A DNA stretch of 35,482 nt, taken from the NCBI GenBank assembly GCA_947259495.1, contig CAMYLV010000010.1, positions 1-35,482 on the forward strand, written 5' to 3'. Origin of the DNA: an uncultured Desulfobacterales bacterium. GTDB taxonomy: Bacteria; Desulfobacterota; Desulfobacteria; Desulfobacterales; JAHEIW01. Shown here one piece after another: positions 1 through 13,009 of this stretch (position 1 is the stretch's first letter; every line of letters begins with the position of its first letter). The notes below the pieces were generated by a model. That model saw nothing but the letters and a program-made list of their open reading frames with translations. It ran no database searches and was not told where the DNA came from. The position numbers and the translations under genes were made by a program.

Positions 1-218
1 AGCCATCCACGACCATACAACCAGATCATCTGACGCATGATTCGATCCCCGTTCCAGCGCGTGGTGATTTTCCATACCGGGAACAAAGCAGGAAAAAGAA
101 TTATGCTCAGCACCGTCCAGACCAGCATCAACGGCAAAACAGTCAAATTCATAAGAATCGTTATCCAAACGTCTGTTTGATGGCTGAATCGTAAGCATTG
201 CGGTCGCGAGATTTTCAT
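1..218 (-). CDS. Probable lysophospholipid acyltransferase, N-terminal fragment
   Basis: The reading frame starts at an ATG one base after the stop of the acyl carrier protein gene and runs off the left edge of the window, so only about 72 residues are visible. They show a short basic, polar N-terminus, one hydrophobic segment (about residues 20-45), then a basic stretch with the pattern RMIWLYGRGW. That layout is typical of the N-terminus of bacterial PlsC-like 1-acyl-glycerol-3-phosphate acyltransferases. The catalytic HX4D motif would lie outside the window, so the family call is an inference. Its position as last visible gene of an ACP/ketosynthase operon fits a role in transferring the finished acyl chain to a lipid acceptor. 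Confidence 0.6.
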   Translation of the reverse strand, partial: MKISRPQCLRFSHQTDVWITILMNLTVLPLMLVWTVLSIILFPALFPVWKITTRWNGDRIMRQMIWLYGRGW

Positions 219-219
219 A

Positions 220-477
220 CTAATTGTTTAATTCTTTTTTCTTATTGATCACAAAATCATGTATATCGCCTAAAGCGCGGATTTTCTGAATAGAATCATC
301 CTCGCGGATTTTGAATTGGAAGGCATTTTCCAAGACAACCACCATATCCACAATATCCAGGCTGTCCAGCTCTAAATCATCAAAGATTAATGCTTCCGGT
401 TTCATACTGTCACTACTCAGCTCGAACTCTTCGGCCAGACTTGTGTTAATTAAACCTATGATTTCCTGGTCAGTCAT
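220..477 (-). CDS. Acyl carrier protein
   Basis: This 85-residue acidic protein has the ACP fold signature. The phosphopantetheine attachment serine is S39 in the DSLD motif, followed by the hydrophobic helix DIVDMVVVLE, and the length is normal for a free-standing ACP. It would carry acyl intermediates as thioesters for the ketosynthases, ketoreductase and oxidoreductase encoded just upstream. Its start overlaps the end of the FabF-like gene by 8 bases and its stop is one base before the acyltransferase start, so translation is probably coupled. It is likely pathway-specific rather than the housekeeping AcpP, because no fabD/fabH/fabG housekeeping cluster surrounds it. Confidence 0.93.
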   Translation of the reverse strand: MTDQEIIGLINTSLAEEFELSSDSMKPEALIFDDLELDSLDIVDMVVVLENAFQFKIREDDSIQKIRALGDIHDFVINKKKELNN

Positions 478-1699
478 TTTGATATCTCCGTATTACGAGT
501 GACGAATTAACGCCGCCAAGGGCAAAATTATTTTTAATCGCTGTTTGAATGCTGGCTGTGCTCAATGTTCGAACATGGCGGATATTCGCGCATGATTCAT
601 CGACATTATCCAGATTCAGTGTCGGTATAAGACACCCCCGGTTCAGCATTTCCACCAAAGCTGCCAACTCCAGGGAACCGCTGGCGGCCATGGTATGGCC
701 CAGATGACCTTTCAATGAGCTTAGCGGCACCTTGCCGCCAAATAATTGATAAATGGCTTTGCTTTCAGCGATATCTCCCTGAAGCGTTGCAGTGGCATGG
801 GCATTGACATAGTCAATGCTTTCCGGAGTTAGGCCGGCGTCCTCCAGTGCCGTGCGCATACATCTCGCAATGGAGTCAGTATCCGGATTAGCGATGCTGG
901 AAGGATCCGAAACCGTCGCAAAGCCAATGATTTCAGCCAGGATGTTCACGCCCCGGGCGCTTGCCGACTCAAGAGATTCCAGAAGCAAAATACCGCTGCC
1001 CTCGGAGCAGACCACGCCGTCACGATCGCGGTCAAAAGGACGGGGCGTGCGATGGGGTTGGGCATTGAAATTGATCGATGCGGCATTCAACATGTCAAAC
1101 GTTCCCGTCGTCAGCGGGTGATATTCGTCAGCACCGCCGCAGAGCATGAACTGCTGCCTGCCCAAAGCAATCATTTCGTATCCATAGCCAACAGCCTGAC
1201 AGCCGGTCGAACAGGCCGCCGATGGTGATAGAATGCGGCCGGTAATTCCCAGTACCTGCGAAACATTGACGGCACAGGAGTGATTCATGATTTTAAAAAA
1301 AATTGTTGACTTGATCCGCTCCAGATCGCGCGTTGCTAAAAAATTTTTAAAAAACTCCTGGTTGGTCTGGGTGCTGCCGATAGTTGAGCCGATGGCAACA
1401 CCCATCTGACCGCTGGTGCATTCCGCCGCGCTCAATCCCGACTGTTGCAAGGCTTCCTGACTGGCCAGCGTGGCATAAACAGACATATTGGACATCGAGC
1501 GCCGGTACTTGCGGGGTATTTCTTTCGGGTCTATATCCGGCACCAGGCCGGCGACTTTGCTTCGGACCCCATTAATTGGGTCCAATTTGTCGACCTGCCT
1601 GACAGCACTGCGGCCGGCCATCAATGACTCGATCAGCAAATCCTGACCTTTGCCGTAAGGCGACACGGCTCCCATGCCTGTTATGACAACGCGTTTCAT
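470..1699 (-). CDS. Beta-ketoacyl-ACP synthase, FabF-like (KAS II type)
   Basis: The 409-residue protein is a condensing enzyme of the KAS I/II family. It has the N-terminal VVITGMGAVSP strand, the nucleophile C163 in AACSTGC, a first histidine H301 in NAHAT, and a lysine and second histidine (K330, H335) in LKGHLGHT. The complete Cys-His-His set predicts an active decarboxylating ketosynthase rather than a chain-length factor. The C-terminus keeps the glycine-rich loop FALGGVNSS. The ATG overlaps the TGA of the FAD oxidoreductase gene (ATGA), and the 3' end overlaps the ACP start. Together with the second ketosynthase at 3183-4403, it would extend the chain on the local ACP. Confidence 0.94.
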   Translation of the reverse strand: MKRVVITGMGAVSPYGKGQDLLIESLMAGRSAVRQVDKLDPINGVRSKVAGLVPDIDPKEIPRKYRRSMSNMSVYATLASQEALQQSGLSAAECTSGQMGVAIGSTIGSTQTNQEFFKNFLATRDLERIKSTIFFKIMNHSCAVNVSQVLGITGRILSPSAACSTGCQAVGYGYEMIALGRQQFMLCGGADEYHPLTTGTFDMLNAASINFNAQPHRTPRPFDRDRDGVVCSEGSGILLLESLESASARGVNILAEIIGFATVSDPSSIANPDTDSIARCMRTALEDAGLTPESIDYVNAHATATLQGDIAESKAIYQLFGGKVPLSSLKGHLGHTMAASGSLELAALVEMLNRGCLIPTLNLDNVDESCANIRHVRTLSTASIQTAIKNNFALGGVNSSLVIRRYQND

Positions 1700-3186
1700 C
1701 TATATTTCTGAATTTGTTTTAGAAGTTGTTTGTGTCCGATGATGAATCCGCAAACCAAAAAAGCCGAAATGATCGCACCCATAATCCCCGGTGCCACGAT
1801 GGCCTGACCGGCTAGATACAGATTTTTAGCCTTGGTCAACGGCAGTGGATTATATTGACCGATTTTATGCTTAACGCCATACATGCTGCCGAAGGGATTG
1901 TGGGTAAAATCCCTTAGGGTCAAAGATGTGGCACACTCGGCATGTTCAATATTTCCGGCAAGCTCCGGAATACTTCGTTCCATATGCTGTCTCAGTTTAA
2001 ATGCGATCTTTTCTTTAAACTGATAATATTCCAGGGGCCGCTTCCCCGAGATCGACTGGGACCAGGGTTCCGTATCGTTACGGGATGCGGGGACAATGCC
2101 GATCAATCCGGACTTTGTCACTTTGGAATCCTCCGGCAAGGAGCCGCATACATATAACGGCCGACTATTCAAGGGGTTATTCTCCCACAAACCGGTCAGG
2201 TTCCAATCGCTTGTCATCACCAGGTTATTGCGGATCAACATTTCGGGAACAGCACGACTGGCAATGTAAAGAATGTAGGCCGAGATGGTTTCCTCCAGTT
2301 GAAACAGACGCTTCCGGAAAGCCGGACGAAATGCAGATGTCGGCACCAGGTTTAATAATTCGATAGGATGGACAGTTGAAATGCAGCCACGGCAATTAAG
2401 AGTTTTGCCGTCCTGCAGGCGGATTCCCGCAGGCGAGGTATCGGGAGAAAAGATGATTTCGCTCACCCCTTGACCGCAATACACATCAACGTCCAATTTT
2501 TCCAGCTGTGATTCATATGCTTTTGTCAGAGAGCGTCCGCCCCCCTTGATGCCATGGACCGACTCGTAGTAGGAGCCGGCTATACACGCATGAAAGGCCA
2601 ACGGAACTTCCTCGGGTGGCACACCATGAAGCAGACAGTGAACCGAGAGCACCCATTTGAGGGCGGCATTGGTGGTAAGCCGATCTAAAAAATCTTTTAA
2701 GCTTGGACCGTGAAGGCCCTTAGGGGCACCGGAATCGAGAAAATCGGGGTTTAGATTAAGATAGGGAAAAGAATTGAACGTGTCTTTGACTGTTTGAAGG
2801 TATTCATTGATAGCGCTTGATTCCAGGGGAAACGCCTCAAGCAAACGTTCACGGATCCTTTCGTATCCGTAAGGAAAGCGCAGCTCAAAGCCCTCCTCTT
2901 GGCAGCGGATAAGGTCAAAGCCATCCGGATCAAAGGGCACTTTTTCCAATCTGTCGGAGAGTCCCAGATATTGGAACAAGGCGTCTAGTATTTCACCGTC
3001 GCCTAAACTGCCGGTGTAATGAAATCCGCTATCAAAATAAACGCCTTTGCGGGTAAATCCTCGGATTAGCGGGGCCGGTTTTTTGGCTTTTTCGACAAGC
3101 GCAACATGATAACCGTTTTGGGCCAGTATAATCGCTGTGGATAAACCTGAGACGCCGGCCCCGATAACGACGAAGTCGTACTTCAT
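1696..3186 (-). CDS. Phytoene desaturase/RetSat-like FAD-dependent oxidoreductase
   Basis: This is a 496-residue flavoprotein. A dinucleotide-binding GAGVSG motif lies at residues 9-14, after a beta strand, with an acidic residue (VALVEK) closing the second strand. A FTRKGVYFDSGFHY segment resembles the substrate-side motif of CrtI/CrtISO/retinol saturase enzymes. The C-terminal FAD-contact segment is YLAGQAIVAPGIMGA. I start it at the ATG at 3186 because this forms an ATGA overlap with the upstream stop and puts the Rossmann motif at the N-terminus; an in-frame start at 3210 would add only eight residues. Family members desaturate, saturate or isomerise polyene chains. In this operon the likely substrate is an ACP-bound or free acyl chain, which is inference. 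Confidence 0.88.
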   Translation of the reverse strand: MKYDFVVIGAGVSGLSTAIILAQNGYHVALVEKAKKPAPLIRGFTRKGVYFDSGFHYTGSLGDGEILDALFQYLGLSDRLEKVPFDPDGFDLIRCQEEGFELRFPYGYERIRERLLEAFPLESSAINEYLQTVKDTFNSFPYLNLNPDFLDSGAPKGLHGPSLKDFLDRLTTNAALKWVLSVHCLLHGVPPEEVPLAFHACIAGSYYESVHGIKGGGRSLTKAYESQLEKLDVDVYCGQGVSEIIFSPDTSPAGIRLQDGKTLNCRGCISTVHPIELLNLVPTSAFRPAFRKRLFQLEETISAYILYIASRAVPEMLIRNNLVMTSDWNLTGLWENNPLNSRPLYVCGSLPEDSKVTKSGLIGIVPASRNDTEPWSQSISGKRPLEYYQFKEKIAFKLRQHMERSIPELAGNIEHAECATSLTLRDFTHNPFGSMYGVKHKIGQYNPLPLTKAKNLYLAGQAIVAPGIMGAIISAFLVCGFIIGHKQLLKQIQKYR

Positions 3187-4403
3187 CCATCGAACCTCAA
3201 AATCAGACAAGAGTTTGTTCCGCCAAATCCGGCGGCATTACACATAATGGTTTCAGGTGGCCGCTGGATTGTTTCCGTCACAATATTCAATTTTCTAGAT
3301 TCTGCATCCGGTGTTTCAAAATTTAAATTTTTAGCGATAAATCCTTCCCGGGCCATAATAACCGAGTAAACCACGCTGGATGCGCCTGCCATCCAGAGTT
3401 CATGACCCGTCATGCCCTTGAGCGAAGATACCCATGGTGTTTGTGGTCCGAACACCTTAAATATGCTTTGCGCTTCCACCGAATCACCAACCGCTGTTGA
3501 GGTGGCATGCGCGCAGATATAATCAATATCGCCGGGTTGAAGGTGAGCCCGTGCCAACGTTTTTTGCATGGTCGTCCGCAGACCGTCATTGCTGGGAGCT
3601 GAAATATGAACGCCGTCTGAGGAAAATTCGTAAGCCGCTATTTTCCCTAAAATTTTGGCGCCTCTTTGTTTAGCCAGATCATACCGTTCCAATACAACGG
3701 CTGCCGCTCCACCGCTGGGAACCAAACCATCCCGGTTGGCGTCAAATGGGCGGCTGGCTGATGTCGGCTCCTCGGTGCGGGTGGAGAAGGCACCCAGGGC
3801 ATCAAAGCTGCACATGCATTCCCAATTTATTTCCTGGGCTCCCCCGCAGATGACGCGCTGCTGTCGGCCAAGGGTAATAAGATCCGCCGCCTGACCGATG
3901 GCATGTCCCCCGCTGGAACATGCCGAACTGATTGTCCAGCAGGCACCCTTCGTTTTTAGGATGGTATTAAGATTCATGGTAATATTAGAATTCATCGAGC
4001 GAAAAACGAGCCCACTGCCGATGGATTTGCTCTCCCCATGCTTGCGCAGCAGTGCCACCTGTTCTACCGCTGCCTGGCAGCTGGAATCACATCCGAATAT
4101 CAGCCCGGTTTCATGATTTTGAATGTCGTCCTCACCAAGTCCGGACATTGTCAATGCTTCGTCAACCGCCGCATAGGTTTGGATCGTAAAATCCGGCATG
4201 GTTTTGCGACGTTTGCGTGATAAGTAGTCGGTCGGGTTAAAATTTCGAACAGCGCCTGTCAGCGGACTGCGAAACCCCAGCTCCTGGCGCTTTTTATCGA
4301 TGACGATTCCAGATTTACCCTTGCGCAATGACGCCGAGACGCGGTTGGTATTGTTACCGAGGCAGGAAACGACACCGATACCTGTTATTGCTACTTCGTA
4401 CAT
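3183..4403 (-). CDS. Beta-ketoacyl-ACP synthase, FabB-like (KAS I type)
   Basis: This 406-residue condensing enzyme has nucleophile C162 in SSACSSGGH, H299 in CAHATS, and K329/H334 in LKGMTGHELWMAG. All catalytic residues are present. The C-terminal third (LNIVTET followed by NAAGFGGTNS) matches the FabB pattern better than the FabF pattern, and it is clearly different from the FabF-like protein two genes downstream, so the two probably have different chain-length or substrate preferences. A 120-base gap separates it from fabG upstream and contains a weak AGGA ribosome-binding site near the start. Its stop overlaps the start of the FAD oxidoreductase gene. Confidence 0.93.
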   Translation of the reverse strand: MYEVAITGIGVVSCLGNNTNRVSASLRKGKSGIVIDKKRQELGFRSPLTGAVRNFNPTDYLSRKRRKTMPDFTIQTYAAVDEALTMSGLGEDDIQNHETGLIFGCDSSCQAAVEQVALLRKHGESKSIGSGLVFRSMNSNITMNLNTILKTKGACWTISSACSSGGHAIGQAADLITLGRQQRVICGGAQEINWECMCSFDALGAFSTRTEEPTSASRPFDANRDGLVPSGGAAAVVLERYDLAKQRGAKILGKIAAYEFSSDGVHISAPSNDGLRTTMQKTLARAHLQPGDIDYICAHATSTAVGDSVEAQSIFKVFGPQTPWVSSLKGMTGHELWMAGASSVVYSVIMAREGFIAKNLNFETPDAESRKLNIVTETIQRPPETIMCNAAGFGGTNSCLILRFDG

Positions 4404-4525
4404 AAATTCCTACGGGTCCTTCAATGGAACACACCCTGCTATCGATGGGATGCGAGGTGCTGTTCTGGTGGTTTGGCAACAAGCAGCTGGCCTACTTACG
4501 ATCATTTCATCCGGGTAAAGCGAGA

Positions 4526-5254
4526 TTACATATAAATGCCTCCGTTGACACCAATGACTTGTCCTGTGATATACGAAGCGCTATCCGAGCTTAAAAAGCG
4601 GACAACATTGGCGACTTCATCAGCAGTTCCAAATCGCTGCAAGGGGATCAGCGGTAAGACTTTATCCTTGGGCACATCTTTAATCATTTCCGTTTCAATA
4701 AAACCCGGCGAAACCGCATTAACCAGAATGTTGCGTTTCGCAACTTCTGCCGCCAGCGCTTTGGTGGCGCCGATCAGGCCGGCCTTGGCGGTTGAATAAT
4801 TCACCTGGCCGGGCATGCCGCATTGTCCGGAAGTAGATACGATATTGATAATACGACCCTTCCGTTTCCTCAGCATGCCCATTATGACCCCTTTGGTGAT
4901 CTGAAAAAAACCATCCAGAGAAACTGATAGTACGTCCTTCCAATCTTGTTGACTCATCCAGATCATGAGCAAGTCTCTATTACAGCCGGCATTATTGACC
5001 AGAATGTCAGGTGTTTCTTTTTCCAGCAGTGGATACAGAACATTTTGGGTAGCGTCAGGGTCGGCAACATCAAATGGCAGCAGCCGGCACTGCCGGCCGG
5101 TTTCTTTAACTATTTTCTTGACTTGTTCCGCAGCGTCGTGATCTTTCCGGTAATTGATCCATATGTCAAAACCATCTTTGGCGAGGCCGGCAGCAATGGC
5201 CGCCCCGATTCCTTTGCTTGCCCCGGTCACCAGGGCAATTCTGCGATCACCCAT
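4526..5254 (-). CDS. 3-oxoacyl-ACP reductase, FabG-like SDR
   Basis: This is a classical short-chain dehydrogenase/reductase of 242 residues. It has TGASKGIG (10-17) for NADP(H), NNAG (87-90), and the catalytic set S140, Y153, K157. The C-terminal ITGQVIGVNGG is characteristic of FabG. I choose the ATG at 5254, preceded by AAGGGAAG at good spacing, over an in-frame TTG at 5278 that would overlap the lipoprotein gene. It should reduce the 3-ketoacyl product of the neighbouring ketosynthases. No dehydratase (FabZ/FabA) or enoyl reductase is visible in the window, so these steps are either encoded beyond the left edge or borrowed from primary metabolism. Confidence 0.93.
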   Translation of the reverse strand: MGDRRIALVTGASKGIGAAIAAGLAKDGFDIWINYRKDHDAAEQVKKIVKETGRQCRLLPFDVADPDATQNVLYPLLEKETPDILVNNAGCNRDLLMIWMSQQDWKDVLSVSLDGFFQITKGVIMGMLRKRKGRIINIVSTSGQCGMPGQVNYSTAKAGLIGATKALAAEVAKRNILVNAVSPGFIETEMIKDVPKDKVLPLIPLQRFGTADEVANVVRFLSSDSASYITGQVIGVNGGIYM

Positions 5255-5264
5255 TTTACTTCCC

Positions 5265-5855
5265 TTATTGATAGTCAATATCTATTACCTTGTGGTTATC
5301 ATTAAATTTAACGGCCATTGATTTCCATCGATTGCGCCAGTAAATCCAGGTGTTACTCTCTAAAGAAGGCGTTTGATGGGCAGCCGGGTAACCGAGGGCT
5401 ATTCGCACACCATTTTTTGTCATGCCAGGATAGGCTTTACCCTCTTTAATACCCTTTTGATCAATTCTAGATAGGCGATTTAATTTGACTTTTTGGGGAG
5501 ATGCAATCAATTCAATATATTGACTGCCACTCATGCCCATATTTCTTGGGTTGTATTCGAAAAAGATTTGGCGCCCATCCACCAATCTTTTAATTGTCAA
5601 TCCCCTGTGATAGCTGCCGAATTCAACGGCGGAGTTTACCGGTAAAATAAAATGTCCATTTCCGGAATCCGTCCAATTCGCATAACTGGCTTTGCTGTCG
5701 CGTATTCCTTGTTGGGCATGAATGTTGTTTTGAAGAAATAATTTTTTTCCTTCATGTGGCTTTAGGGAAGTCTGGGTTGCTCCGCTGCAGGCTTGAATAA
5801 TGATAAACAGAATAAAAATGGCGCCAAAACATATGTTGGATCGTTTTAAATGCAT
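5265..5855 (-). CDS. Outer-membrane lipoprotein with OmlA/SmpA (BamE)-like C-terminal domain
   Basis: The 196-residue product has a basic N-terminus, a hydrophobic segment and a lipobox-like IQAC with the modifiable cysteine at C23, so it is probably lipidated. The C-terminal part (about residues 137-196: YPGMTKNGVRIALGYP and a later WIYWRNRW) resembles the SmpA/OmlA fold, where a GMT motif starts the domain. The middle region is unassigned. It is the first gene of the ketosynthase operon, ten bases from fabG, with an AAGGAAAG ribosome-binding site and a sigma-54-type promoter upstream. A lipoprotein at the head of a lipid-making operon suggests that the product reaches the envelope. The specific role is unknown. 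Confidence 0.8.
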   Translation of the reverse strand: MHLKRSNICFGAIFILFIIIQACSGATQTSLKPHEGKKLFLQNNIHAQQGIRDSKASYANWTDSGNGHFILPVNSAVEFGSYHRGLTIKRLVDGRQIFFEYNPRNMGMSGSQYIELIASPQKVKLNRLSRIDQKGIKEGKAYPGMTKNGVRIALGYPAAHQTPSLESNTWIYWRNRWKSMAVKFNDNHKVIDIDYQ

Positions 5856-5964
5856 TGCTTTCCTTCTTTTCTTTTTTTGGTTTATATGGTTGTGATCCTA
5901 CTGGGCGATGCTCTAAAGGATCGGATGATAAAATCGTGTGCCGTATAAAATTGTTGTTAGAAAA

Positions 5965-5980
5965 TGCAATAAATATGCCA
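5965..5980 (-). promoter_or_regulatory. Candidate sigma-54 (-24/-12) promoter of the lipid operon
   Basis: Read on the minus strand the sequence is TGGCATATTTATTGCA. It matches the RpoN consensus TGGCAY-N5-TTGCA at every defined base with exact GG-to-GC spacing. It sits about 110 bases upstream of the lipoprotein ATG, in an AT-rich intergenic stretch. If real, the operon needs an enhancer-binding activator. No such activator gene lies in the window. Confidence 0.55.
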
Positions 5981-6132
5981 GTAGTTTTTCGAATTTAATT
6001 TTTCTAAGTTATTAAAATTATTAATAAATAAGAAGCAACGGTGTAAGCGGATGAAAAGCCTGAGGAGAAGCGTCCAAATTCACGGTCAATTTTATGACAT
6101 CTAGGGGTTCGGATTCATCAAATAGCGTTTGA

Positions 6133-6840
6133 AAATCGAAGAGGCGCCGCCATCTGATTTCCCTTGCATATAAGGTTGGCTGGCGGGTTTCAGGAATACG
6201 TAGCTTAACCTGGAGCCAGGTGGATCTTAACCAGGGTATCGTAAGGCTCGAGGCCGGAGGAACCAAAAATGCAGAAGGTCGCACCGTTTATCTCGATGAT
6301 GAATTAAGACAAATTTTCAAGCAACAATTCGCGACCAGAAAAAAGCAAAAAAAGTTAATCCTGTATGTTTTTCCAAACAAAGAAGGAGACGGCAAAATCG
6401 GTGATTTTAGAGGCGCCTGGAAGGCGTCCTGCGAAAAAGCCGGCATCGGTAAAAAGTTTTTCCATGACTTCAGGAGAACTGCGGTCAGAAATATGATTCG
6501 ATCCGGCATCCCCGAGCGGGTTGCCATGATGATATCCGGTCACAAGACCCGATCGGTATTTGATCGCTACAACATTGTCAGCGATTGGGTTTTCCAAACC
6601 GGGTGCTTCGCAGCCGGTTTCACCCGCAACGATTGGGGCACTTCGCGCCCCTGTATTTTACCGCCTGTGGCGGTAAAATCCAAGCCACCCGCTGTGCGGG
6701 TGGTCGTTGAACCGGATCTTCAAATGGCTGCAAAATTGCAGGAAGAATATTTGAAGTCCGCCACGGGCACAAAACAGGCACAATTGCTGAATTTTAAGAA
6801 AAAAAATGGATCAACCACTACATTAGACAATAGTGATTAA
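6133..6840 (+). pseudogene. Tyrosine recombinase (phage-type integrase), 5'-truncated, with in-frame hairpin insertion
   Basis: Only the C-terminal catalytic domain remains. The frame is open from a stop at 6130, and homology starts with GWRVSGIRSLTW (the first active-site Arg) and runs through TKNAEGRTVYL, HDFRRTAVRN (second Arg), SGHKTRSVFDRY (His and catalytic Tyr), and a tail with LQEEYLKSATGT. The first possible start, a GTG at 6220, lies after the first Arg. No N-terminal DNA-binding domain was found in any frame upstream. Between RYNIVSD and the expected DLQ, about 43 codons (6586-6714) made entirely of hairpins interrupt the protein without shifting the frame. The gene is probably dead. 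It lies 15 bases from tRNA-Leu, as expected for an island integrase. Confidence 0.82.
6586..6714. repeat. Hairpin-rich insertion inside the recombinase fragment
   Basis: About 129 bases hold four successive inverted repeats: AAACCGG/CCGGTTT, GGGGC/GCCCC, the 11-bp arms ATTTTACCGCC/GGCGGTAAAAT around TGT, and CCACCCGC/GCGGGTGG around TGT. The codon GAT occurs at both edges (6583-6585 and 6715-6717), which could be a 3-bp target duplication. The length is a multiple of three and contains no stop in the host frame. Confidence 0.7.
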
Positions 6841-6855
6841 CCTATTGATTTTACA

Positions 6856-6943
6856 TGGTGCCCGGGGCCGGAATTGAACCGGCACGGCACTTAGTACCGA
6901 GGGATTTTAAGTCCCTTGCGTCTACCATTTCCGCCACCCGGGC
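6856..6943 (-). tRNA. tRNA-Leu (anticodon UAA)
   Basis: On the minus strand the gene runs from GCCCGGGTGGCGGAAATGG to an encoded CCA. The acceptor stem is GCCCGGG paired with CCCGGGC. The anticodon loop CTTAAAA gives UAA, a long variable arm (CGGTACTAAGTGCCG) is typical of leucine tRNA, and the T arm is GCCGGTTCAATTCCGGC. All parts appear intact. The 3' end faces the recombinase fragment. Confidence 0.97.
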
Positions 6944-7001
6944 GATTATGCCGTTTTCCATTAATAATAATGTTCCAAAATACGGAAGGTCGGCATAAAT
7001 G

Positions 7002-7030
7002 ATTGTAAAAAAAACATTTCAATACCGCAA
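7002..7030 (-). promoter_or_regulatory. Candidate sigma-70 promoter for tRNA-Leu
   Basis: On the minus strand there is TTGCGG, a 17-base spacer, then TACAAT, with the -10 about 60 bases upstream of the tRNA 5' end. The -10 matches 5/6 and the -35 is weak. Confidence 0.4.
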
Positions 7031-7132
7031 CGTTTTTTTGACAACCAATATAAAGCTACAAGGTCTGATACCTGAAACGAGGCGGGTTTTCAAGAAAAAA
7101 TAAATGCAGGTTTAGCCGGCCTGTTGAAAGAT

Positions 7133-8644
7133 CTACAGAGCCGCGGATAAAATATGTTCAGGTTGTGAAAATTCAAAGCCTTTTTCATTAAACAGCTTCA
7201 AACAGGCACTGACCACCTGTTCGTCGTATAGCTTGCCCCTGTTGTTAAAAACTTCTTCCAGGGCCTTGTCCAGACCGATAGAGGGACGATATGGCCGATG
7301 GGAGGCCATGGTTTCGACAACATCGGATACACCCACAATGCGCGCTCCGATCAAAATCTCTTTACCCCCCAGTCCATTGGGGTACCCGGATCCGTCCATC
7401 CGTTCATGATGTTGCAAAAGGATCTGGGCAATCGGCCAGGAGAAATCAATCCCTTTTAAAATTTCATATCCCACCTTTGAATGTGCCTGAATCATTTTTC
7501 GCTCGATATCCGTTAGTTTCACCGGTTTGCTGAGGATTTCGGCCGGCAGTGAGATTTTTCCGATATCATGAATCGAGGCGGCCATATAAACGCCCTCGAC
7601 GTCTTCGGCAGGCAAATCGATTTCTGCGGCAATGGCCTGCGCCAGTTCGGCCACCCGGTGCTGGTGACCCGAGGTATACGGATCTCGCATTTCGACCGCC
7701 AGTGCCATGGCCTGAATGGTTCCGTCCATTACCTTTTTGATGTGATCCAGGCCGAGTTGCAGCTGCTGCTGCATGCCTTTGCGAGCGGTAATATCCCTGA
7801 GTGAGGCCAGATAGGCCTTTTGCCCTTTCCACTCGGTTTCCATGACCCGCATTTCAGCAACCATGGATTTGCCGTCGCCAGTCGTAATGTCCAGTTCGGT
7901 GGGTTTTTCCGGAGAAATCAAGTGCTCGAAGGTCTGACCGACAAAGTGCTTTGCTTTCGTTCCGAAAATGGATTCTGCCGCCGGGTTCATAAACCTCACA
8001 ATGGCGTTTTCGTCCAAAATCAAGATGCCATCGGCGTTGGCGTAGATCATACTGCTAAAATTGATTTCGCTCGTGTACAGCGCCTTTTCGGTTTTCCGGC
8101 GGGATTTGACTGCCTTGCGCAGCCGCCTGTTGGTTTTAACCAATGCATCTGTGCGCCTTTCCACCAAATTCTCCATATCCAGATGAAGTTTGCGCAACTC
8201 CGCTTCCGCCTGCCATTTTGCGCTCAAGGCTGTTGCAAATTGAAGGATTTCTTGCCGATGAAATGGCTTTTGAAGATATAACAATTTATCCGGGGTATCC
8301 CCTTGTTTTGCCGACAGCCCCGGGTCGGTGCGCATAAAGCCGCTGACCAGCATTATATTCGTATATGGATCCAGCTGCTGAATCTGTTGGGCTGTCCATT
8401 CCCCATCCGGGCCCGGTGGCATGTTTAAGTCAAGAAAAATAACCGCGTACGATTGGTTGAATTCCAGGGAAAGTCTAACAGCTTCAACCGCTTCTTTTCC
8501 CTGGGAGCAACAATCGAGTTCGAATACGGCAGATTTGCGACCTTTTGTTACATCTGAATTCAGGATTTGCTGATATAGATCCAGTATGGCCGGGTCATCG
8601 TCAACGGCCAGGATGCGGTATTTTGAGGTGGGGTAATCTGTCAT
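7133..8644 (-). CDS. Response regulator with REC, PAS and HD-GYP domains (probable c-di-GMP phosphodiesterase)
   Basis: The 503-residue protein starts with a receiver domain (about 8-140) with phosphoacceptor D72 in IFLDLNMPPGPDG and K126 in LQKPF. A predicted coiled coil (about 145-190) follows, then a PAS domain (about 196-285, with FMNPAAESIFG and the closing SLRDITARK). The C-terminal HD-GYP domain (about 300-490) has H-D at 359-360, HHERMDGSGYPNG at 412-424 and the GYP triplet at 420-422, so the metal and GYP residues expected of an active cyclic-di-GMP hydrolase are all present. It is a single-gene unit with no partner histidine kinase next to it. Transcription would start in the AT-rich region at 8645-8750, upstream of the first structured repeat. 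Confidence 0.93.
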   Translation of the reverse strand: MTDYPTSKYRILAVDDDPAILDLYQQILNSDVTKGRKSAVFELDCCSQGKEAVEAVRLSLEFNQSYAVIFLDLNMPPGPDGEWTAQQIQQLDPYTNIMLVSGFMRTDPGLSAKQGDTPDKLLYLQKPFHRQEILQFATALSAKWQAEAELRKLHLDMENLVERRTDALVKTNRRLRKAVKSRRKTEKALYTSEINFSSMIYANADGILILDENAIVRFMNPAAESIFGTKAKHFVGQTFEHLISPEKPTELDITTGDGKSMVAEMRVMETEWKGQKAYLASLRDITARKGMQQQLQLGLDHIKKVMDGTIQAMALAVEMRDPYTSGHQHRVAELAQAIAAEIDLPAEDVEGVYMAASIHDIGKISLPAEILSKPVKLTDIERKMIQAHSKVGYEILKGIDFSWPIAQILLQHHERMDGSGYPNGLGGKEILIGARIVGVSDVVETMASHRPYRPSIGLDKALEEVFNNRGKLYDEQVVSACLKLFNEKGFEFSQPEHILSAAL

Positions 8645-8754
8645 TATAACCAGCGCCTTAAAATATCACAGCTGATGGGGTGAATTCCGACTGAGCGAAA
8701 CACAACCATATTTAATATCAAAAATATATATTAATTACAATAACTTTTACCTGA

Positions 8755-8818
8755 GTTGAGCGTTTCAAATTTTAAAATGATTAAATATACTAGACAGGAA
8801 TTCTTTCAGTTTTATTTT
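8755..8818 (+). repeat. Direct repeat 1a of structured repeat element R1
   Basis: A 64-bp AT-rich unit starts GTTGAGCGTTTCAAATTTT and contains AGGAATTCT. It recurs 202 bp downstream with two mismatches. Its GTTTCAAATTTT (8762-8773) is the exact complement of 8820-8831 at the start of the core. Confidence 0.9.
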
Positions 8819-8819
8819 C

Positions 8820-8945
8820 AAAATTTGAAACCCTGCGGGATTGCCGATCTTACCGCAGCTACTGTGTCAAATGCCGTTCCGCATAGTCAACTATAGCGGA
8901 ACGACATTTTCCGTGTATATGCGGCAACCTCGACAATCGCTCGAC
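8820..8945. repeat. Structured core of repeat element R1
   Basis: This GC-richer core lies between the two direct repeats. A long imperfect palindrome has inner arms at 8869-8886 and 8891-8909 around the loop TCAA, and outer arms TTACCGCAGCTAC (8850-8862) and GTATATGCGGCAA (8915-8927). It ends with CGACAATCGCTC. It is clearly homologous to the core at 14571-14737. The gap 8645-9125 contains no credible protein gene. The element could be a MITE-like insertion, an RNA structure or both. Confidence 0.85.
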
Positions 8946-8956
8946 TCAGGCCCCAA

Positions 8957-9020
8957 GTTGAGCGTTTCAAATTTTAAAATGATTAAATATACCAGGCAGG
9001 AATTCTTTCAGTTTTATTTT
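8957..9020 (+). repeat. Direct repeat 1b of structured repeat element R1
   Basis: This is the second copy of the 64-bp unit, 62/64 identical to 8755-8818. It is followed directly by a short stretch (9025-9069) that resembles the sequence at 6951-6998 next to tRNA-Leu. Confidence 0.9.
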
Positions 9021-9125
9021 TGCACCGCTTTCCATTATAATGTCCCAAAATAAAAAGTGCGGCATAAATAAAAGGCTTGCGGGCTGCTGCTTGTCAAACC
9101 GCAATTCATCTGGTAATAATTTGAC

Positions 9126-9734
9126 ATGAATAAGCCGCATGGTCGACCCAGGTTAATTCTCGCCTCCAATTCCCCGCGGCGACGCTATTTATTGGCGCAA
9201 GCGGGGCTTACATTTTCTGTAATTCCAAGTAACATCGACGAGCACAAGGTGGCGATGTCGGATCCTGCTGTTTACGTCAGAACACTGGCCGAATCCAAGG
9301 CAATCGATATATCGGAAATGCATCCGGACAGCTGGGTCATCGGGGCCGACACGATTGTGCTCATTGAGCACCGGATTCTCGGCAAGCCGGATTCGAAAGA
9401 CGCGGCCAGAGACATGCTCAGGCGCCTGAGTGGTAAAAGCCATCAGGTGTTCACCGGTTATTGTATCTGTCGTAAACGGGAAGACCGGCTTTTCTCAGAT
9501 ACGGTAAAAACAGATGTGCGCTTTAAAAATCTCAGCGATCGGGAAATCGAATGGTATATTCAAACCGGCGAACCTTTTGACAAAGCCGGTGCTTACGGTA
9601 TCCAGGGCATTGGATCCTTTTTGGTGAAAAGCATCAATGGATCATATACCAATGTGGTCGGGCTGCCGGTCTGTGAGGTTATTGATTTTTTGATCAAAGA
9701 AGGTGTGCTAGCAGATGAATATCGCCTTTTTTAA
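9126..9734 (+). CDS. maf: Maf-family nucleotide pyrophosphatase
   Basis: The 202-residue protein is a full-length Maf/YhdE homologue. It has the N-terminal loop ASNSPRRRYLL (13-23), the general-base region IGADTIV with D75, the GKSHQVFTG strand, and DKAGAYGIQG in the C-terminal half. Maf proteins hydrolyse dTTP, UTP or modified nucleotides to monophosphates and have been linked to septum control. No strong ribosome-binding site is visible upstream of the ATG. YggS starts 29 bases downstream on the same strand and queH follows, so the three probably form one transcript. The promoter would lie within or after the R1 repeat. Confidence 0.95.
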   Translation: MNKPHGRPRLILASNSPRRRYLLAQAGLTFSVIPSNIDEHKVAMSDPAVYVRTLAESKAIDISEMHPDSWVIGADTIVLIEHRILGKPDSKDAARDMLRRLSGKSHQVFTGYCICRKREDRLFSDTVKTDVRFKNLSDREIEWYIQTGEPFDKAGAYGIQGIGSFLVKSINGSYTNVVGLPVCEVIDFLIKEGVLADEYRLF

Positions 9735-9763
9735 ACTGCATGCTTATTCTTTGAGAGCATGAA

Positions 9764-10447
9764 ATGAAAAAGCGACTGGATCAGATACATGAGCGTATAC
9801 GACGAGCGGCTGAAGCCTGTGGAAGGGATGTTGCTTCTGTCAGACTGGTGGCGGTCAGCAAGACCGTTGCGCCTGATCTTGTCCGGGAAGCCCTCGAGGC
9901 CGGCGTGACCATTCTGGGCGAAAATTATGTACAGGAAGCAGGTGAAAAATTTAAGGCCCTGCTACAATATCCGGTCTCCTGGCATTTTATCGGTCATCTG
10001 CAATCGAATAAGGCCAAATATGCGGTCAGGCTTTTTGATCTGATTCATTCGGTGGATTCGCTCAAACTGGCGCATGAACTGGATAAACAGGCCGCCAAAG
10101 TGGATAAAATCCAACAAATCCTGGTGCAGGTCAACATCAGCGGAGAAGATACCAAATCCGGGATTTCGGCTGATGAAACGATCGAGTTGATTTCAGAGAT
10201 CAGCCAATTGAAAAACCTGTCCATTAAGGGTCTGATGACCATGCCGCCTTATTTTTACCAGCCTGAAAAAGTTCGGCCGTTCTTCGCAGCGTTGCGAGAA
10301 CTGCGGGATCAGATCAAGGAGCGCTCAATTGCCAATGTCTGTATGGACGAATTGTCAATGGGAATGACCGGTGACTTTGAAGTCGCCATAGAAGAAGGCG
10401 CTACGCTGGTGCGAATCGGCACGGCTATATTTGGAGAAAGAAAATGA
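9764..10447 (+). CDS. yggS: Pyridoxal-phosphate homeostasis protein (YggS/PLPBP family)
   Basis: This 227-residue single-domain PLP-binding barrel has the lysine for PLP at K33 in VAVSKT. It also has GENYVQE, the HFIGHLQSNK signature, and the C-terminal SMGMTGDFEVAIEEGATLVRIG (split here: SMGMTGDFE then GATLVRIG), which holds the phosphate. Family members buffer free PLP and affect amino-acid and B6 metabolism without catalysing a known reaction. A GAGAG sequence sits at suitable spacing before the ATG. The stop overlaps the queH start as ATGA. Confidence 0.96.
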   Translation: MKKRLDQIHERIRRAAEACGRDVASVRLVAVSKTVAPDLVREALEAGVTILGENYVQEAGEKFKALLQYPVSWHFIGHLQSNKAKYAVRLFDLIHSVDSLKLAHELDKQAAKVDKIQQILVQVNISGEDTKSGISADETIELISEISQLKNLSIKGLMTMPPYFYQPEKVRPFFAALRELRDQIKERSIANVCMDELSMGMTGDFEVAIEEGATLVRIGTAIFGERK

Positions 10448-10974
10448 AAGTCCTCTTGCACATCTGTTGCGCGAACTGCGCCATTTATCCCATCAAAGCC
10501 ATGCGGGAAGAAGGGATGGAGGTGATGGGTTTTTATTACCGCCACAACATCCATCCTTACACCGAATGCGAAAAACGCCAGACAGCCCTTGAAGAATATG
10601 CCGAACGAATGGATCTGAAGGTCATTTATCAAGAAGGCTATGATCTGGAAGGATTTATCCAGAATGTCGCCTTTCGGGAATCCGAGCGCTGTAATTATTG
10701 CTATCATGACCGCTTGCGGTCAACAGCTCTGATCGCCAAACGCGGAAAATTCGACACCTACTCCTCAACATTACTTTACAGCAAAAAGCAGCAACATGAT
10801 CTGATCCGCTCGATGGGCGAATCCATCGGCAAATCGGTGGGCGTGCCGTTTCTATACCATGACTTTCGGGCAGGCTGGAAGGAAGGTATTGAATGTTCCA
10901 AACAAATGGGGCTCTACCGGCAACAGTACTGCGGGTGTATCTACAGTGAAAAAGAAAGATATTATAAAGAGTAG
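10444..10974 (+). CDS. queH: Epoxyqueuosine reductase QueH
   Basis: The 176-residue protein belongs to the DUF208/QueH family, which performs the last step of queuosine biosynthesis: reduction of epoxyqueuosine to queuosine in tRNA. The diagnostic cysteines are visible: HICCANC (C8, C9, C12), CNYC (C83, C86) and YCGCIYSE (C163, C165). They are expected to bind an iron-sulfur cluster and a metal. The length is typical. Translation is coupled to yggS through a 4-base overlap. No other queuosine gene is in the window. Confidence 0.95.
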   Translation: MKVLLHICCANCAIYPIKAMREEGMEVMGFYYRHNIHPYTECEKRQTALEEYAERMDLKVIYQEGYDLEGFIQNVAFRESERCNYCYHDRLRSTALIAKRGKFDTYSSTLLYSKKQQHDLIRSMGESIGKSVGVPFLYHDFRAGWKEGIECSKQMGLYRQQYCGCIYSEKERYYKE

Positions 10975-10978
10975 TTTT

Positions 10979-11160
10979 ATTGGTTTGATTTGTTTCATTA
11001 GTTCGATTGGCTGAATGGCTGTCTATGATGAACATTCGATCCTTAAACTATTCATTCTGTCGCGGCTAACTGCCGCTCCCACAGGAGGTTGAATTAGAAG
11101 CAGTAGCTTCAGCCACAACCGACTCGAACCAATTGAACTAATTGAACCAATCAAACCAAT
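10979..11160. repeat. Large inverted repeat around a GC-rich hairpin, 3' of queH
   Basis: The segment 10979-11010 is the reverse complement of 11129-11160 at 28 of 32 positions. The intervening sequence contains another palindrome-like element (GTCGCGGC and GCCGCTCCCACAGG, about 11057-11083). It lies between the end of queH and the M48 protease start and could terminate the maf-yggS-queH transcript. Confidence 0.7.
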
Positions 11161-11179
11161 TCAACATTTTTGAAATTTT

Positions 11180-13009
11180 ATGTTTGGAAATTTTTTATAC
11201 TTCATCATTGTTCTGCTGATTTATCTGACCTATCAGCCTTCGGAAGAGACTAATTTTAGCGGCTTCGAAGCGTTCACGTTTTTCATTGGCTTAATCGTAT
11301 TCTTTTTTTACTTTACATCTTTTTTGTTTCGCAGACTCGAGAAACGGATTTCGAACGGCGCGTTTGTTCAGCTTGATTCACAATTTCACGCTATTTTGAT
11401 GCGTCAATCCATCATGGCGATTCTGATTTTCGCCATCGACATTTATGGCCTCAACCTCTCATCTTTTCTGATCGGCATTCCGCCATTCGCAACCATACCG
11501 ACCCTTGAAGCATTATTGTTTCTGGGTCTTTTTGTCTTTTACCTGGCGCTTGTCTGGGCCTGTGCCTACGGCGCGTACAAAAAACTATATCGCAGCGACA
11601 TTTCCAAAAGAGCATATGTTGTTTCAAATATTACCTTTTCAATCCCGGTACTGCTCCCCTGGTTGATTCTTTCCGGATTAGCCGATCTGATCAAAGCTTT
11701 GCCGTTTGAATGGCCCGCCCGTTTTCTCGAGACCACCGAAGGTGAGATAACTTATTTCCTTCTTTTTCTCTTTGCGGTGGCGGTGCTCGGGCCAACGATG
11801 ATTCAGAAATTCTGGCGCTGCAAGCCGCTCGAAGCCGGTGAGCATCGCAAACGTATCGAAAGCCTGTGCCGGAAAGCGGGAATTGCTTATGCCGATATTC
11901 TTTACTGGCCTATTTTCGGTGGTAAAATGATCACGGCCGGCGTAATGGGGCTTATCAAAAAATTTCGTTATATACTGGTCACCCCTTCCCTGCTGCAATT
12001 GCTTGAACCCGAAGAAATCGATGCCGTCATTGCACACGAAATCGGACATGTCAAAAGAAAGCATCTCATATTTTACCTGTTGTTCTTCGTCGGCTACATG
12101 CTTCTGTCTTACGTGACATTTGATATCATTCTTTTTGGAATTGTTTATGCCGAGCCGGTTTACTGGTTGATCAACAAAACCGGATTCGACCAGACCACCA
12201 TTTTTTCGGCCCTGTTCAGCCTTGTTATCATCATTGTATTTTTAATCTATTTTCGCTTTATTTTCGGATTCTATATGCGCAATTTCGAACGACAGGCGGA
12301 TATTTTTGTCTACACGCTATTTGATTCTGCACAGCCCCTCATCTCCACACTGGAAAAAATTGTGACCACCAGCGGGCAATCTGCCGACCGGCCCAACTGG
12401 CACCATTTCAGTATAAGGGAGCGCATCGATTACTTAAAAAAATGCGAATTCGACACCCGCTGGATTCGCCGCCATGATCAAAAGGTTAAAAAAAGTATCG
12501 GCCTTTATCTTGTCGGAATGTTGCTGATCGGCATTGTCGGCTACCAGTTAAATATGGGCGTTATTGGCAATAAGCTAAATCAAAATATTTTGGAAAAAGT
12601 GATTGTCAGAGAACTGCAAAAATCCCCGGATAACCCCAATTTGTTCCGGCTCATGGGGGATTTGTACTACGAGCGCCAGGATTACCCGGGCGTCAAGTAC
12701 GCTTATGAAAAATCACTTGCGTTGCGGATAGACGACCCGCATGTGCTCAACAACCTGGCTTGGTTTTACGCAACCTGCGAGGAACCCTCGCTGCGCGACC
12801 CCGAGAGGTCCTTGCTTCTCGCAAAATTGGCGGTTGAACTCGAACAATCCTCCCAAATTTATGACACACTGGCCGAAAGTTATTTTGCAAACGGTTTGAA
12901 CCCGGAAGCCATCAAGGCCGGGGAGAAGGCGCTAAAACTGGCGAAAGACAATCGCGCTTACTATAAGAAGCAGCTGGAGAAGTTCAGGGAGGCCGCTTCG
13001 GCGAAATAA
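11180..13009 (+). CDS. M48-family membrane zinc metalloprotease with C-terminal TPR region
   Basis: The 609-residue integral membrane protein has about five hydrophobic segments in the first 205 residues. The cytosolic protease domain contains AHEIGHVKRKH (HEXXH: H286, E287, H290) and the third ligand region NFERQADIF (E370). Two further membrane segments lie between these motifs at about 297-320 and 340-363. A last membrane segment (about 496-512) is followed by a helical TPR-like tail (about 525-600, with NPNLFRLMGDLYYERQDYPG and PHVLNNLAWFYA). This is the Ste24/HtpX class, which cleaves membrane or misfolded proteins. The TPR tail after the protease domain suggests substrate or partner binding. 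It is a single-gene unit. Confidence 0.9.
   Translation: MFGNFLYFIIVLLIYLTYQPSEETNFSGFEAFTFFIGLIVFFFYFTSFLFRRLEKRISNGAFVQLDSQFHAILMRQSIMAILIFAIDIYGLNLSSFLIGIPPFATIPTLEALLFLGLFVFYLALVWACAYGAYKKLYRSDISKRAYVVSNITFSIPVLLPWLILSGLADLIKALPFEWPARFLETTEGEITYFLLFLFAVAVLGPTMIQKFWRCKPLEAGEHRKRIESLCRKAGIAYADILYWPIFGGKMITAGVMGLIKKFRYILVTPSLLQLLEPEEIDAVIAHEIGHVKRKHLIFYLLFFVGYMLLSYVTFDIILFGIVYAEPVYWLINKTGFDQTTIFSALFSLVIIIVFLIYFRFIFGFYMRNFERQADIFVYTLFDSAQPLISTLEKIVTTSGQSADRPNWHHFSIRERIDYLKKCEFDTRWIRRHDQKVKKSIGLYLVGMLLIGIVGYQLNMGVIGNKLNQNILEKVIVRELQKSPDNPNLFRLMGDLYYERQDYPGVKYAYEKSLALRIDDPHVLNNLAWFYATCEEPSLRDPERSLLLAKLAVELEQSSQIYDTLAESYFANGLNPEAIKAGEKALKLAKDNRAYYKKQLEKFREAASAK

Follow-up and report, generated by a model that had tools for sequence, protein, structure and literature searches.

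A lipid operon at a contig end in an uncultured Desulfobacterales bacterium is probably the first part of an aryl-polyene-type gene cluster

Genes and junctions of the operon

The window, by which we mean the whole stretch of 35,482 nucleotides analysed here from the genome of an uncultured Desulfobacterales bacterium (G000), carries seven genes on the minus strand at positions 1-5855, all confirmed as present, followed by an integrase remnant and a tRNA gene:

5265..5855, minus strand: lipoprotein-like secreted protein (LPP), with a sub-cut-off Pfam BamE match at the C-terminus
4526..5278, minus strand: FabG-type 3-oxoacyl-ACP reductase (Pfam SDR), likely start ATG 5254
3183..4403, minus strand: KS1, a FabB-like ketosynthase (Pfam KS domains; C162/H299/H334)
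1696..3210, minus strand: CrtI-like FAD enzyme, the flavoenzyme (Pfam Amino_oxidase/FAD), likely start ATG 3186
470..1699, minus strand: KS2, a FabF-like ketosynthase (Pfam KS domains; C163/H301/H335)
220..477, minus strand: acyl carrier protein, ACP (Pfam PP-binding; DSLD site)
1..218, minus strand: PlsC-type acyltransferase, N-terminal fragment (72 codons) cut by the contig end
6220..6840, plus strand: tyrosine-recombinase (integrase) remnant, Pfam match over residues 1-119, the remainder on a dispersed repeat
6856..6943, minus strand: tRNA-Leu (TAA), which the integrase remnant adjoins

From the coordinates and the sequence, the flavoenzyme gene is joined to both KS1 and KS2 by ATGA overlaps, KS2 and the ACP gene overlap by 8 bases, and 1 base separates the ACP gene from the acyltransferase. 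The flavoenzyme start is most likely ATG 3186 and not TTG 3210, because homologous frames (e.g. L036, L075, L076) begin there. The FabG protein has the YxxxK motif in its translation and is 45% identical to E. coli ApeQ; it passes two NCBIfam FabG cut-offs, and its top-scoring model is FlxB of the flexirubin clusters of Bacteroidota, at 316 bits under a cut-off of 340. The ACP is 38% identical to ApeF. The BamE match of the LPP reaches 20.7 bits against a Pfam cut-off of 23.2, and the protein shares 59% identity with the LPP of the relative G430 and 49% with that of L106. The acyltransferase fragment has no Pfam acyltransferase match of its own; it takes its name from the acyltransferase of the closest relative, with which it is 70% identical across 54 residues.

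We built a ketosynthase tree, a quick build with one housekeeping FabF and with E. coli FabB/FabF left out, in which KS1 and all 19 further KS1 rows fall into a single clade, and KS2, 40% identical to E. coli ApeR, groups with ApeR (SH-aLRT 99). The original prediction of a seven-gene operon with overlapping genes and intact active sites is borne out by the reading frames, the Pfam matches and the residues of the ketosynthases, ACP and FabG, and its view of a dedicated lipid operon pairing two different ketosynthases is upheld by the separate clades of KS1 and KS2.

The first base of the window is also base 1 of contig C10, and the genes that seem to be missing from the operon are therefore a contig-end effect; the lack of a visible dehydratase, radical SAM enzyme or ammonia-lyase is thus uninformative about the cluster. 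Ordinary FAS-II was rejected because no enoyl reductase (FabI/K/V) occurs in the visible operon or, by Pfam, in the selected cluster proteins of relatives that were scanned. A Pfa-type PUFA synthase was likewise rejected, since the operon has no large multidomain PfaA-type protein, its ketosynthases all stand alone, and the scores against the NCBIfam PfaA model are 66 and 46 bits against a cut-off of 1010. The sole match of an enoyl-reductase-family type in the scanned proteins is the generic SDR match of FabG.

Related loci and the other half of the cluster

An alignment-based search of genome contigs gave 98 relatives, of which the best 80 were kept. These represent 77 distinct loci, selected by flavoenzyme likeness and partly non-independent (L140/L179 and L154/L155 each share a genome). 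KS1, the flavoenzyme and KS2 are consecutive in 62 of the 77 loci, that is, neighbours among the frames matched by the reference set and less than 600 bases apart, and a further 7 run into a contig end on one side, so that the grouping is not due to chance; L124 was left out because its flavoenzyme is hidden by the overlap rule.

Past the acyltransferase, the relatives show in full or in part the order AT-[Lig-HAL]-DH1-LolA-MMPL-DUF3261-DH2-TE-KS5-CLF-rSAM. Many of them carry ApeP/ApeI-like dehydratases, LolA, an MMPL exporter, a thioesterase, extra ketosynthases and B12 radical-SAM proteins downstream, some also carry an AMP-binding ligase and an aromatic ammonia-lyase, and L119, L148, L155 and L159 hold LolA, MMPL, DUF3261, thioesterase and a ketosynthase with chain-length factor all together. 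In Pfam scans of selected cluster proteins, the best match of each of three DH1 proteins is ApeP-like and below its cut-off (E 2e-5, 0.002 and 0.13), and the best matches of two DH2 proteins are FabA, over its cut-off, and ApeI-like, below it. Reference locus L093 has four proteins with both Radical_SAM and B12-binding matches, though for one the Radical_SAM match is under its cut-off, and radical-SAM-scored frames also occur in relatives. The relatives nearest to the window are G430, with 60% flavoenzyme identity, and G024; in both we located the other half of the cluster elsewhere in the genome.

This cluster kind is common to many anaerobic bacteria and widespread in Desulfobacterota. The earlier statement that the operon matches neither known type exactly, for want of a dehydratase and a radical SAM, is not supported, as relatives carry both just beyond the point at which the contig ends. 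The left flank, which might have proved to be an ordinary FAS-II or PUFA gene set, is aryl-polyene-like as far as the relatives show, and their genes for synthesis and export of this kind suggest a polyunsaturated chain for the envelope, one of the products that had been predicted.

Comparison with aryl polyene and ladderane-like clusters

Homologues of 9 of the 18 proteins of the aryl polyene (APE) locus of E. coli CFT073 are found in the window or its relatives. ApeQ, ApeR and ApeF correspond to FabG, KS2 and ACP of the window, ApeK, ApeM, ApeD and ApeO to TE, MMPL, AT and KS5/KS3 of the reference locus L077/L093, ApeJ to both GT2 and LpxL there, and ApeI to DH2 in L113, with the AT-ApeD and DH2-ApeI matches weak at 24 and 17 bits. 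For ApeA, B, C, E, G, H, L, N and P there is no phmmer match at E 0.01 among the proteins compared, and for LolA, CLF, DUF3261 (a family annotated at the E. coli locus and also present in relatives) and DH1 the only tie to APE is therefore Pfam family or position. Relative to the E. coli locus, the window and its relatives add KS1, the lipoprotein-like protein, the CrtI-like flavoenzyme and B12 radical-SAM proteins; for the last two, the APE locus has no counterpart. In a 2021 study (PMC8253772), the corresponding E. coli parts were given roles in making the APE and in its proposed transport to the outer membrane.

We conclude that the operon is probably the cut-off first part of an aryl-polyene-type iterative type II FAS/PKS cluster that makes a polyene acyl chain for an exported envelope lipid. 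The window itself shows only FabG, two ketosynthases, ACP and the acyltransferase fragment as APE-type parts; the dehydratases, LolA and MMPL of its cluster, and the equivalence of its missing part to that of the relatives, are presumed from the relatives.

The kind of cluster was already known, clusters that look alike by description having been reported in 2009 from Desulfotalea and Geobacter; what is of interest here are the missing starter genes and the carotenoid-enzyme look-alike. The FAS-II clusters of Desulfotalea psychrophila, Geobacter, Pelobacter and Kuenenia, proposed for ladderane or PUFA synthesis in the main text of Rattray et al. (PMC2649909), are alike by description only, their common parts being FabF paralogues, a phytoene-dehydrogenase-like enzyme, radical SAM, a phenylacetyl-CoA-ligase-like protein, a glycosyltransferase and an Mmp-like membrane protein. 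A phytoene-desaturase-like enzyme lies beside FabF paralogues in the window and in 62 of the 77 loci. That main text has no word beginning with "lyase", whereas an aromatic ammonia-lyase frame is present in 28 of the 77 loci here.

It is possible, though in our judgement unlikely, that the cluster instead makes non-conjugated polyunsaturated fatty acids or hydrocarbons, with the CrtI-like enzyme inserting double bonds into a FAS-II chain, a product that Rattray et al. proposed for Desulfotalea. The window clade is without a lyase, as this would allow, and the same main text describes a Desulfotalea cluster syntenic with that of K. stuttgartiensis, similar clusters in Geobacter and Pelobacter, and C31:8/C31:9 hydrocarbons with no ladderanes in D. 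psychrophila (PMC2649909). However, the APE-type DH, TE, LolA, MMPL and KS/CLF-like genes could both yield and keep a polyene with no desaturase needed, and the C31:9 hydrocarbon of Shewanella depends on a Pfa synthase and OleABCD, according to PMC6463001. In the expression experiments of PMC4790861, CrtI homologues of K. stuttgartiensis made no lycopene in E. coli, a result that does not count against a PUFA or hydrocarbon product. Celluxanthene, an anaerobic aryl polyene, was rejected as the product of this system, since the passages of PMC12144888 describe a type I PKS; those of PMC12758564 and PMC7356697 hold nothing decisive on the cluster.

The CrtI-like flavoenzyme

By profile, the solved structures nearest to the flavoenzyme are CrtI (4dgk) and a gamma-carotenoid desaturase (4rep), at 71-72 bits, and by fold the nearest is 4rep (TM 0.76-0.77). 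The prediction of a CrtI-like enzyme is confirmed in the fold, yet among the best 25 of 62 NCBIfam matches no carotenoid model is over its cut-off: CrtD scores 100 bits against 550, crtI_fam 82 against 238 and the isomerase 59 against 587. The enzyme is thus like the carotenoid desaturases CrtI and CrtD in fold, with weak sequence kinship, and differs from them in lying far below their cut-offs and in its place between ketosynthases. Of 22 genomes with the cluster that were checked for SQS_PSY, 3 have it and 19 do not; the window's own genome is one of the three, with one protein (68.5 bits) on contig C8, not near the operon. The scores far under the cut-offs and the lack of carotenoid-pathway genes among the neighbours led us to reject a carotenoid desaturase role. 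The flavoenzyme is probably a member of a non-carotenoid CrtI-fold family that acts on a carrier-bound polyene.

Distribution of the starter cassette

The starter site is covered in 45 loci, of which 22 lack both ligase and lyase, 20 have both and 3 have one; the other 32 of the 77, L124 included, were left out of this table because no AT-to-DH1 span was found by the script. A readable lyase motif occurs in 28 of 30 frames (the 28 from the 77 loci plus those of L037 and L080), 27 with RSH and L037 with HHL, at what we take to be the selectivity position of the lyase. Tyrosine aminomutase, which also reads RSH, and histidine ammonia-lyase are among the best solved relatives of the lyase, so that its substrate may be His or Tyr. 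To judge by its AMP-binding_C_2 match, the AMP-binding ligase is presumably like phenylacetate-CoA ligase. We found no mention of this starter-cassette pattern in the literature searched, mostly outside subscription journals.

In the flavoenzyme tree (72 rows, 48 labelled by hand), the window sits in a lyase-free clade, and its smallest starred sets, of 2, 4 and 7 rows, hold no HAL-positive row; the lyase-free set includes L129, which has a ligase. No lyase frame was seen in the cluster pieces of G430 and G024, the lyase of G024 on contig C412 being rejected as the cluster's because it adjoins uvrA, apart from those pieces. Since the clusters of the window clade are without an ammonia-lyase, the window's polyene chain is probably not begun on a lyase-made aromatic acid.

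It seems quite improbable that the window copy nevertheless makes an aryl polyene proper, on an aromatic starter supplied by genes outside the cluster or past the contig end. E. coli offers a precedent, with an acyl-ACP synthetase, no lyase in the gene table and a predicted 4-hydroxybenzoate starter (PMC8253772, gene table and accompanying text); three ligase-like proteins, scoring 110-130 bits, are encoded elsewhere in G000, and L129 keeps its ligase within the window clade. Against this, and as a further difference from the E. coli locus, searches of six lyase-free relatives (G430, G024, G350, G359, G415 and G287) gave no cluster-type ligase, the best scores there being 86-150 bits compared with 531 in G360. 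None was found in G000 either, but its assembly also lacks the rest of the cluster. The presence in G000 of an ammonia-lyase for the pathway, outside the operon, was also rejected: its only PF00221 protein, on contig C33, is most likely hutH, because its score is like those in G001 and G002 and genes for urocanase, formiminotransferase and an amidohydrolase lie nearby. G001 and G002 have PF00221 matches with no close cluster found, and ligase paralogues of 134-152 bits are also present in the two ligase-positive genomes.

The genomic island and the missing part

In a comparison of positions 5801-13000, the sequence that the window shares with G001 and G003 begins at about the tRNA-Leu gene, and no close copy of the operon was found in three other members of the genus; the operon is probably placed on an island at this tRNA. 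Searches of G000 gave one partial match of 32 bits for a relative's MMPL, no match for a relative's DH1 (without a positive control), and only three ketosynthases, none of KS5/KS3 type. As no real MMPL or DH1 orthologue and no such ketosynthase was found in G000, the rest of the window's cluster may be unassembled or truly lost.

The integrase fragment interrupted by a repeat beside the tRNA, together with the later cluster genes not found in the assembly, would fit a decayed or non-functional remnant, which we nevertheless consider very unlikely, because the six complete genes are all open and close to their orthologues, both ketosynthases and the ACP keep their catalytic residues, and the missing part starts exactly at the contig end.

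Proposed pathway

From the gene content and order, homology, trees and cassette pattern, we infer the following course of synthesis and export for the aryl-polyene-type cluster. ACP-bound chains would be extended by the ketosynthases and reduced by FabG, after which ApeP/ApeI-like hotdog enzymes, whose genes lie further along the cluster, would dehydrate them; with no enoyl reduction the double bonds would remain. The CrtI-fold flavoenzyme, translation-coupled between KS1 and KS2, may act on the polyene by isomerising, desaturating or saturating its bonds. Transfer of the chain to a lipid carrier would fall to the PlsC-type acyltransferase and GT2/LpxL-like enzymes, and LolA and the MMPL exporter would carry the lipid-linked chain to the outer membrane.

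More tentatively, and with doubt as to the whole, we suggest that the "ladderane-like" clusters of Desulfobacterota could represent one aryl-polyene-type pathway with a swappable cassette of ligase and aromatic ammonia-lyase, for which the flavoenzyme tree implies four or more gains or losses. In this view the product of lyase-free members such as the window's would be an envelope lipid with a non-aromatic polyene, and the flavoenzyme would act on an ACP-bound non-isoprenoid polyene, as an isomerase or saturase rather than an O2-type desaturase. Linking the cluster part by part to aryl polyene machinery turns a vague annotation into testable chemistry, and a starter cassette that comes and goes makes it possible to compare clusters with and without the lyase as a matched set.

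PMC9902471 reports antiSMASH "ladderane" clusters, of function not known, in Desulfobacterota and other non-anammox phyla, and many of them are presumably of this kind. KS1-, flavoenzyme- and FabG-like genes also occur together in the Bacteroidales loci L177, L178, L180 and L181.

A truncated operon of a known kind

The original prediction of a compact operon at the left end of the window is confirmed, as seven genes on the minus strand with C-H-H retained in both ketosynthases (FabB-like KS1 and FabF-like KS2) and DSLD in the ACP. From KS1 to the PlsC-type acyltransferase (AT) the genes are tightly packed: two junctions overlap by ATGA and one by 8 bases, and the remaining one has a gap of 1 base. 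The contig belongs to a 69-contig assembly and the window starts at its first base, so that what looks like the operon's left end is the contig edge; the operon is real and truncated by the contig end, and its chemistry is what we infer. Its GC content (0.488) is close to that of the remainder of the window (0.478). The features discussed here are:

5855 to 1, minus strand: lipoprotein-like protein (LPP), FabG, KS1, CrtI-like flavoenzyme, KS2, ACP and AT fragment, in this order
6220-6943: integrase remnant (Pfam match ending at residue 119), left of the tRNA-Leu and directly at its 3' side, together with that tRNA
6856-6943: tRNA-Leu(TAA)

Passages of Rattray et al. 2009 (PMC2649909) describe look-alike clusters in D. 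psychrophila, Geobacter and Pelobacter, suggested for polyunsaturated lipids and likened to the present one by description only, and the Cariaco study (PMC9902471) reports antiSMASH 'ladderane' clusters of unknown function in Desulfobacterota; this kind of cluster is therefore already known. What we add is a part-by-part link to aryl polyenes (APE) and a starter cassette that comes and goes; on this basis the window is assigned to a variant lacking the lyase.

Conserved gene order

Searches with the flavoenzyme covered 40 relatives, 395 genomes of the phylum and genome_contigs (77 loci, from the best 80 of 98 relatives). Matches at E <= 1e-45 occur in 40 of the 395 phylum genomes, the window's own among them, and no close copy was found in three other members of the genus (genomes 97, 91 and 79% complete; best E 5.4e-13, 5.2e-10 and none). 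The nearest relatives are G430, at locus L116 (flavoenzyme 60%, KS2 68%, ACP 76% identity, AT fragment 70% over 54 residues), and L106 (53%, 67%, 65%, and 43% over 61), evidently the contig of locus L036 of genome G024, as each measures 18,163 bases. Both genomes, G430 and G024, carry the remainder of the cluster elsewhere in their assemblies: a second dehydratase (DH2), a thioesterase (TE), KS5, CLF, radical SAM, GT2, LpxL-like, KS3 and KS4 genes.

The flavoenzyme is directly preceded by KS1 and followed by KS2 in 62 of the 77 loci; the trio is cut on one side by a contig end in 7, the flavoenzyme was lost through our script's overlap rule in 1, and its neighbours differ in 7 (FabG/KS2 in two, a DH1-scored frame/FabG in three, KS1/FabG in one, KS2 only in one). 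Beyond AT the order, full or partial, is [ligase-lyase]-DH1-LolA-MMPL-DUF3261-DH2-TE-KS5-CLF-radical SAM. Of the 77 loci, many of which are short contigs, those with a matched frame number 59 for AT, 51 for DH1 (including 3 possibly spurious Bacteroidales frames), 46 for LolA, 42 for MMPL, 32 for DH2, 30 for ligase, 28 each for lyase and TE, 22 for DUF3261, 15 for KS5, 13 for rSAM1 and 11 for CLF. Pfam matches on the reference proteins (Acyltransferase, LolA, MMPL, 4HBT, ketoacyl-synt, AMP-binding, Lyase_aromatic, B12-binding with Radical_SAM, GT2, Lip_A_acyltrans, DUF3261) support these names; DH1 weakly matches ApeP-like, and DH2 matches FabA or ApeI-like.

In G430 (CP070697.1, a MAG 'chromosome') the cluster is split over four places (L116, L188, L189, L190), the breaks falling within genes and leaving KS1, MMPL, rSAM1 and rSAM2 short; runs of X in the L188 and L189 translations suggest stretches of N, and the four-place arrangement may reflect mis-joining in the assembly and not biology. 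KS1-, flavoenzyme- and FabG-like genes lie together in four Bacteroidales MAG loci (L177, L178, L180, L181), of which two have a TE-like gene as well.

The starter cassette

Among the 45 of 77 loci where our script spans AT to DH1, the cassette of AMP-binding ligase and aromatic ammonia-lyase is complete in 20 and absent in 22, with lyase only in 2 and ligase only in 1. On a flavoenzyme tree of 72 rows, 48 bearing a lyase label, accounting for this label takes 8 changes, of which well supported branches force at least 4. The smallest well supported sets that include the window (2, 4 and 7 rows) hold no lyase-positive row; within them L129 carries a ligase and L112 has no label. PF00221 was found in 7 of 24 genomes, and in just two of these, G360 and G006, it lies within the cluster. 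A cluster-type ligase was not found in the window's genome, nor in six relatives free of the lyase (scores of 86-150 bits, compared with 531 in G360). One lyase (L037:13556-15142), lying upstream of FabG and not after AT, has HHL in place of RSH at what we take to be the selectivity position, the sole case among 28 read.

Kinship with aryl polyenes

The APE locus of E. coli encodes 18 proteins, with which we compared the cluster (phmmer, E 0.01). In the window FabG matches ApeQ (45%), KS2 and KS1 match ApeR (40% and 33%) and ACP matches ApeF (38%); among relatives, L077/L093 match ApeD, ApeJ, ApeK, ApeM and ApeO, and L113 matches ApeI. Together 9 of the 18 are matched, and ApeA, B, C, E, G, H, L, N and P are not. 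At the same threshold and against the same 18 proteins, the flavoenzyme, LPP, lyase, ligase, radical SAM, FabH-like, CLF, LolA, DUF3261 and DH1 proteins had no match; weak blastp matches (4-5e-4) of the lyase to ApeQ and of FabH-like to ApeR were set aside. A quick tree of 58 ketosynthases resolves KS1, KS2, KS3 and KS5 into one clade apiece and groups ApeR with KS2 (SH-aLRT 99).

The flavoenzyme

The predicted structure (mean pLDDT 90) is closest in fold to the gamma-carotenoid desaturase 4rep (TM 0.76-0.77), with CrtI 4dgk third, and 4dgk and 4rep are also the best solved relatives by profile search (71-72 bits). No carotenoid model reached its cut-off among the best 25 of 62 NCBIfam matches, and K. 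stuttgartiensis homologues made no lycopene, as stated in a passage of PMC4790861. These data fit an enzyme acting on another polyene, which it may isomerise, desaturate or saturate. Two relatives have another CrtI-like gene, a distant one, a few kb away from the cluster (L036:14228-15871, L074:14570-16222).

A probable tRNA-Leu integration site

Over the stretch compared (5801-13000), sequence common to the window and genomes G001 and G003 starts at about the tRNA-Leu, on whose far side G001 has different genes and G003 a contig end; in the assembly of genome G002 this tRNA lies at the ends of contigs. A 421-aa Phage_integrase protein is encoded at a tRNA-Leu(TAA) in G002. We infer that the operon belongs to an island that was gained at a tRNA hotspot and whose far end the assembly does not include. 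Dispersed short repeats occur at 6583-6721, 6943-7057 and 8749-8980; the first sits inside the integrase remnant, starting about where the Pfam match ends, and the G002 integrase lacks 128 bases there. Among the matches listed, copies of these repeats are many in G000-G003, at about 73-98% identity.
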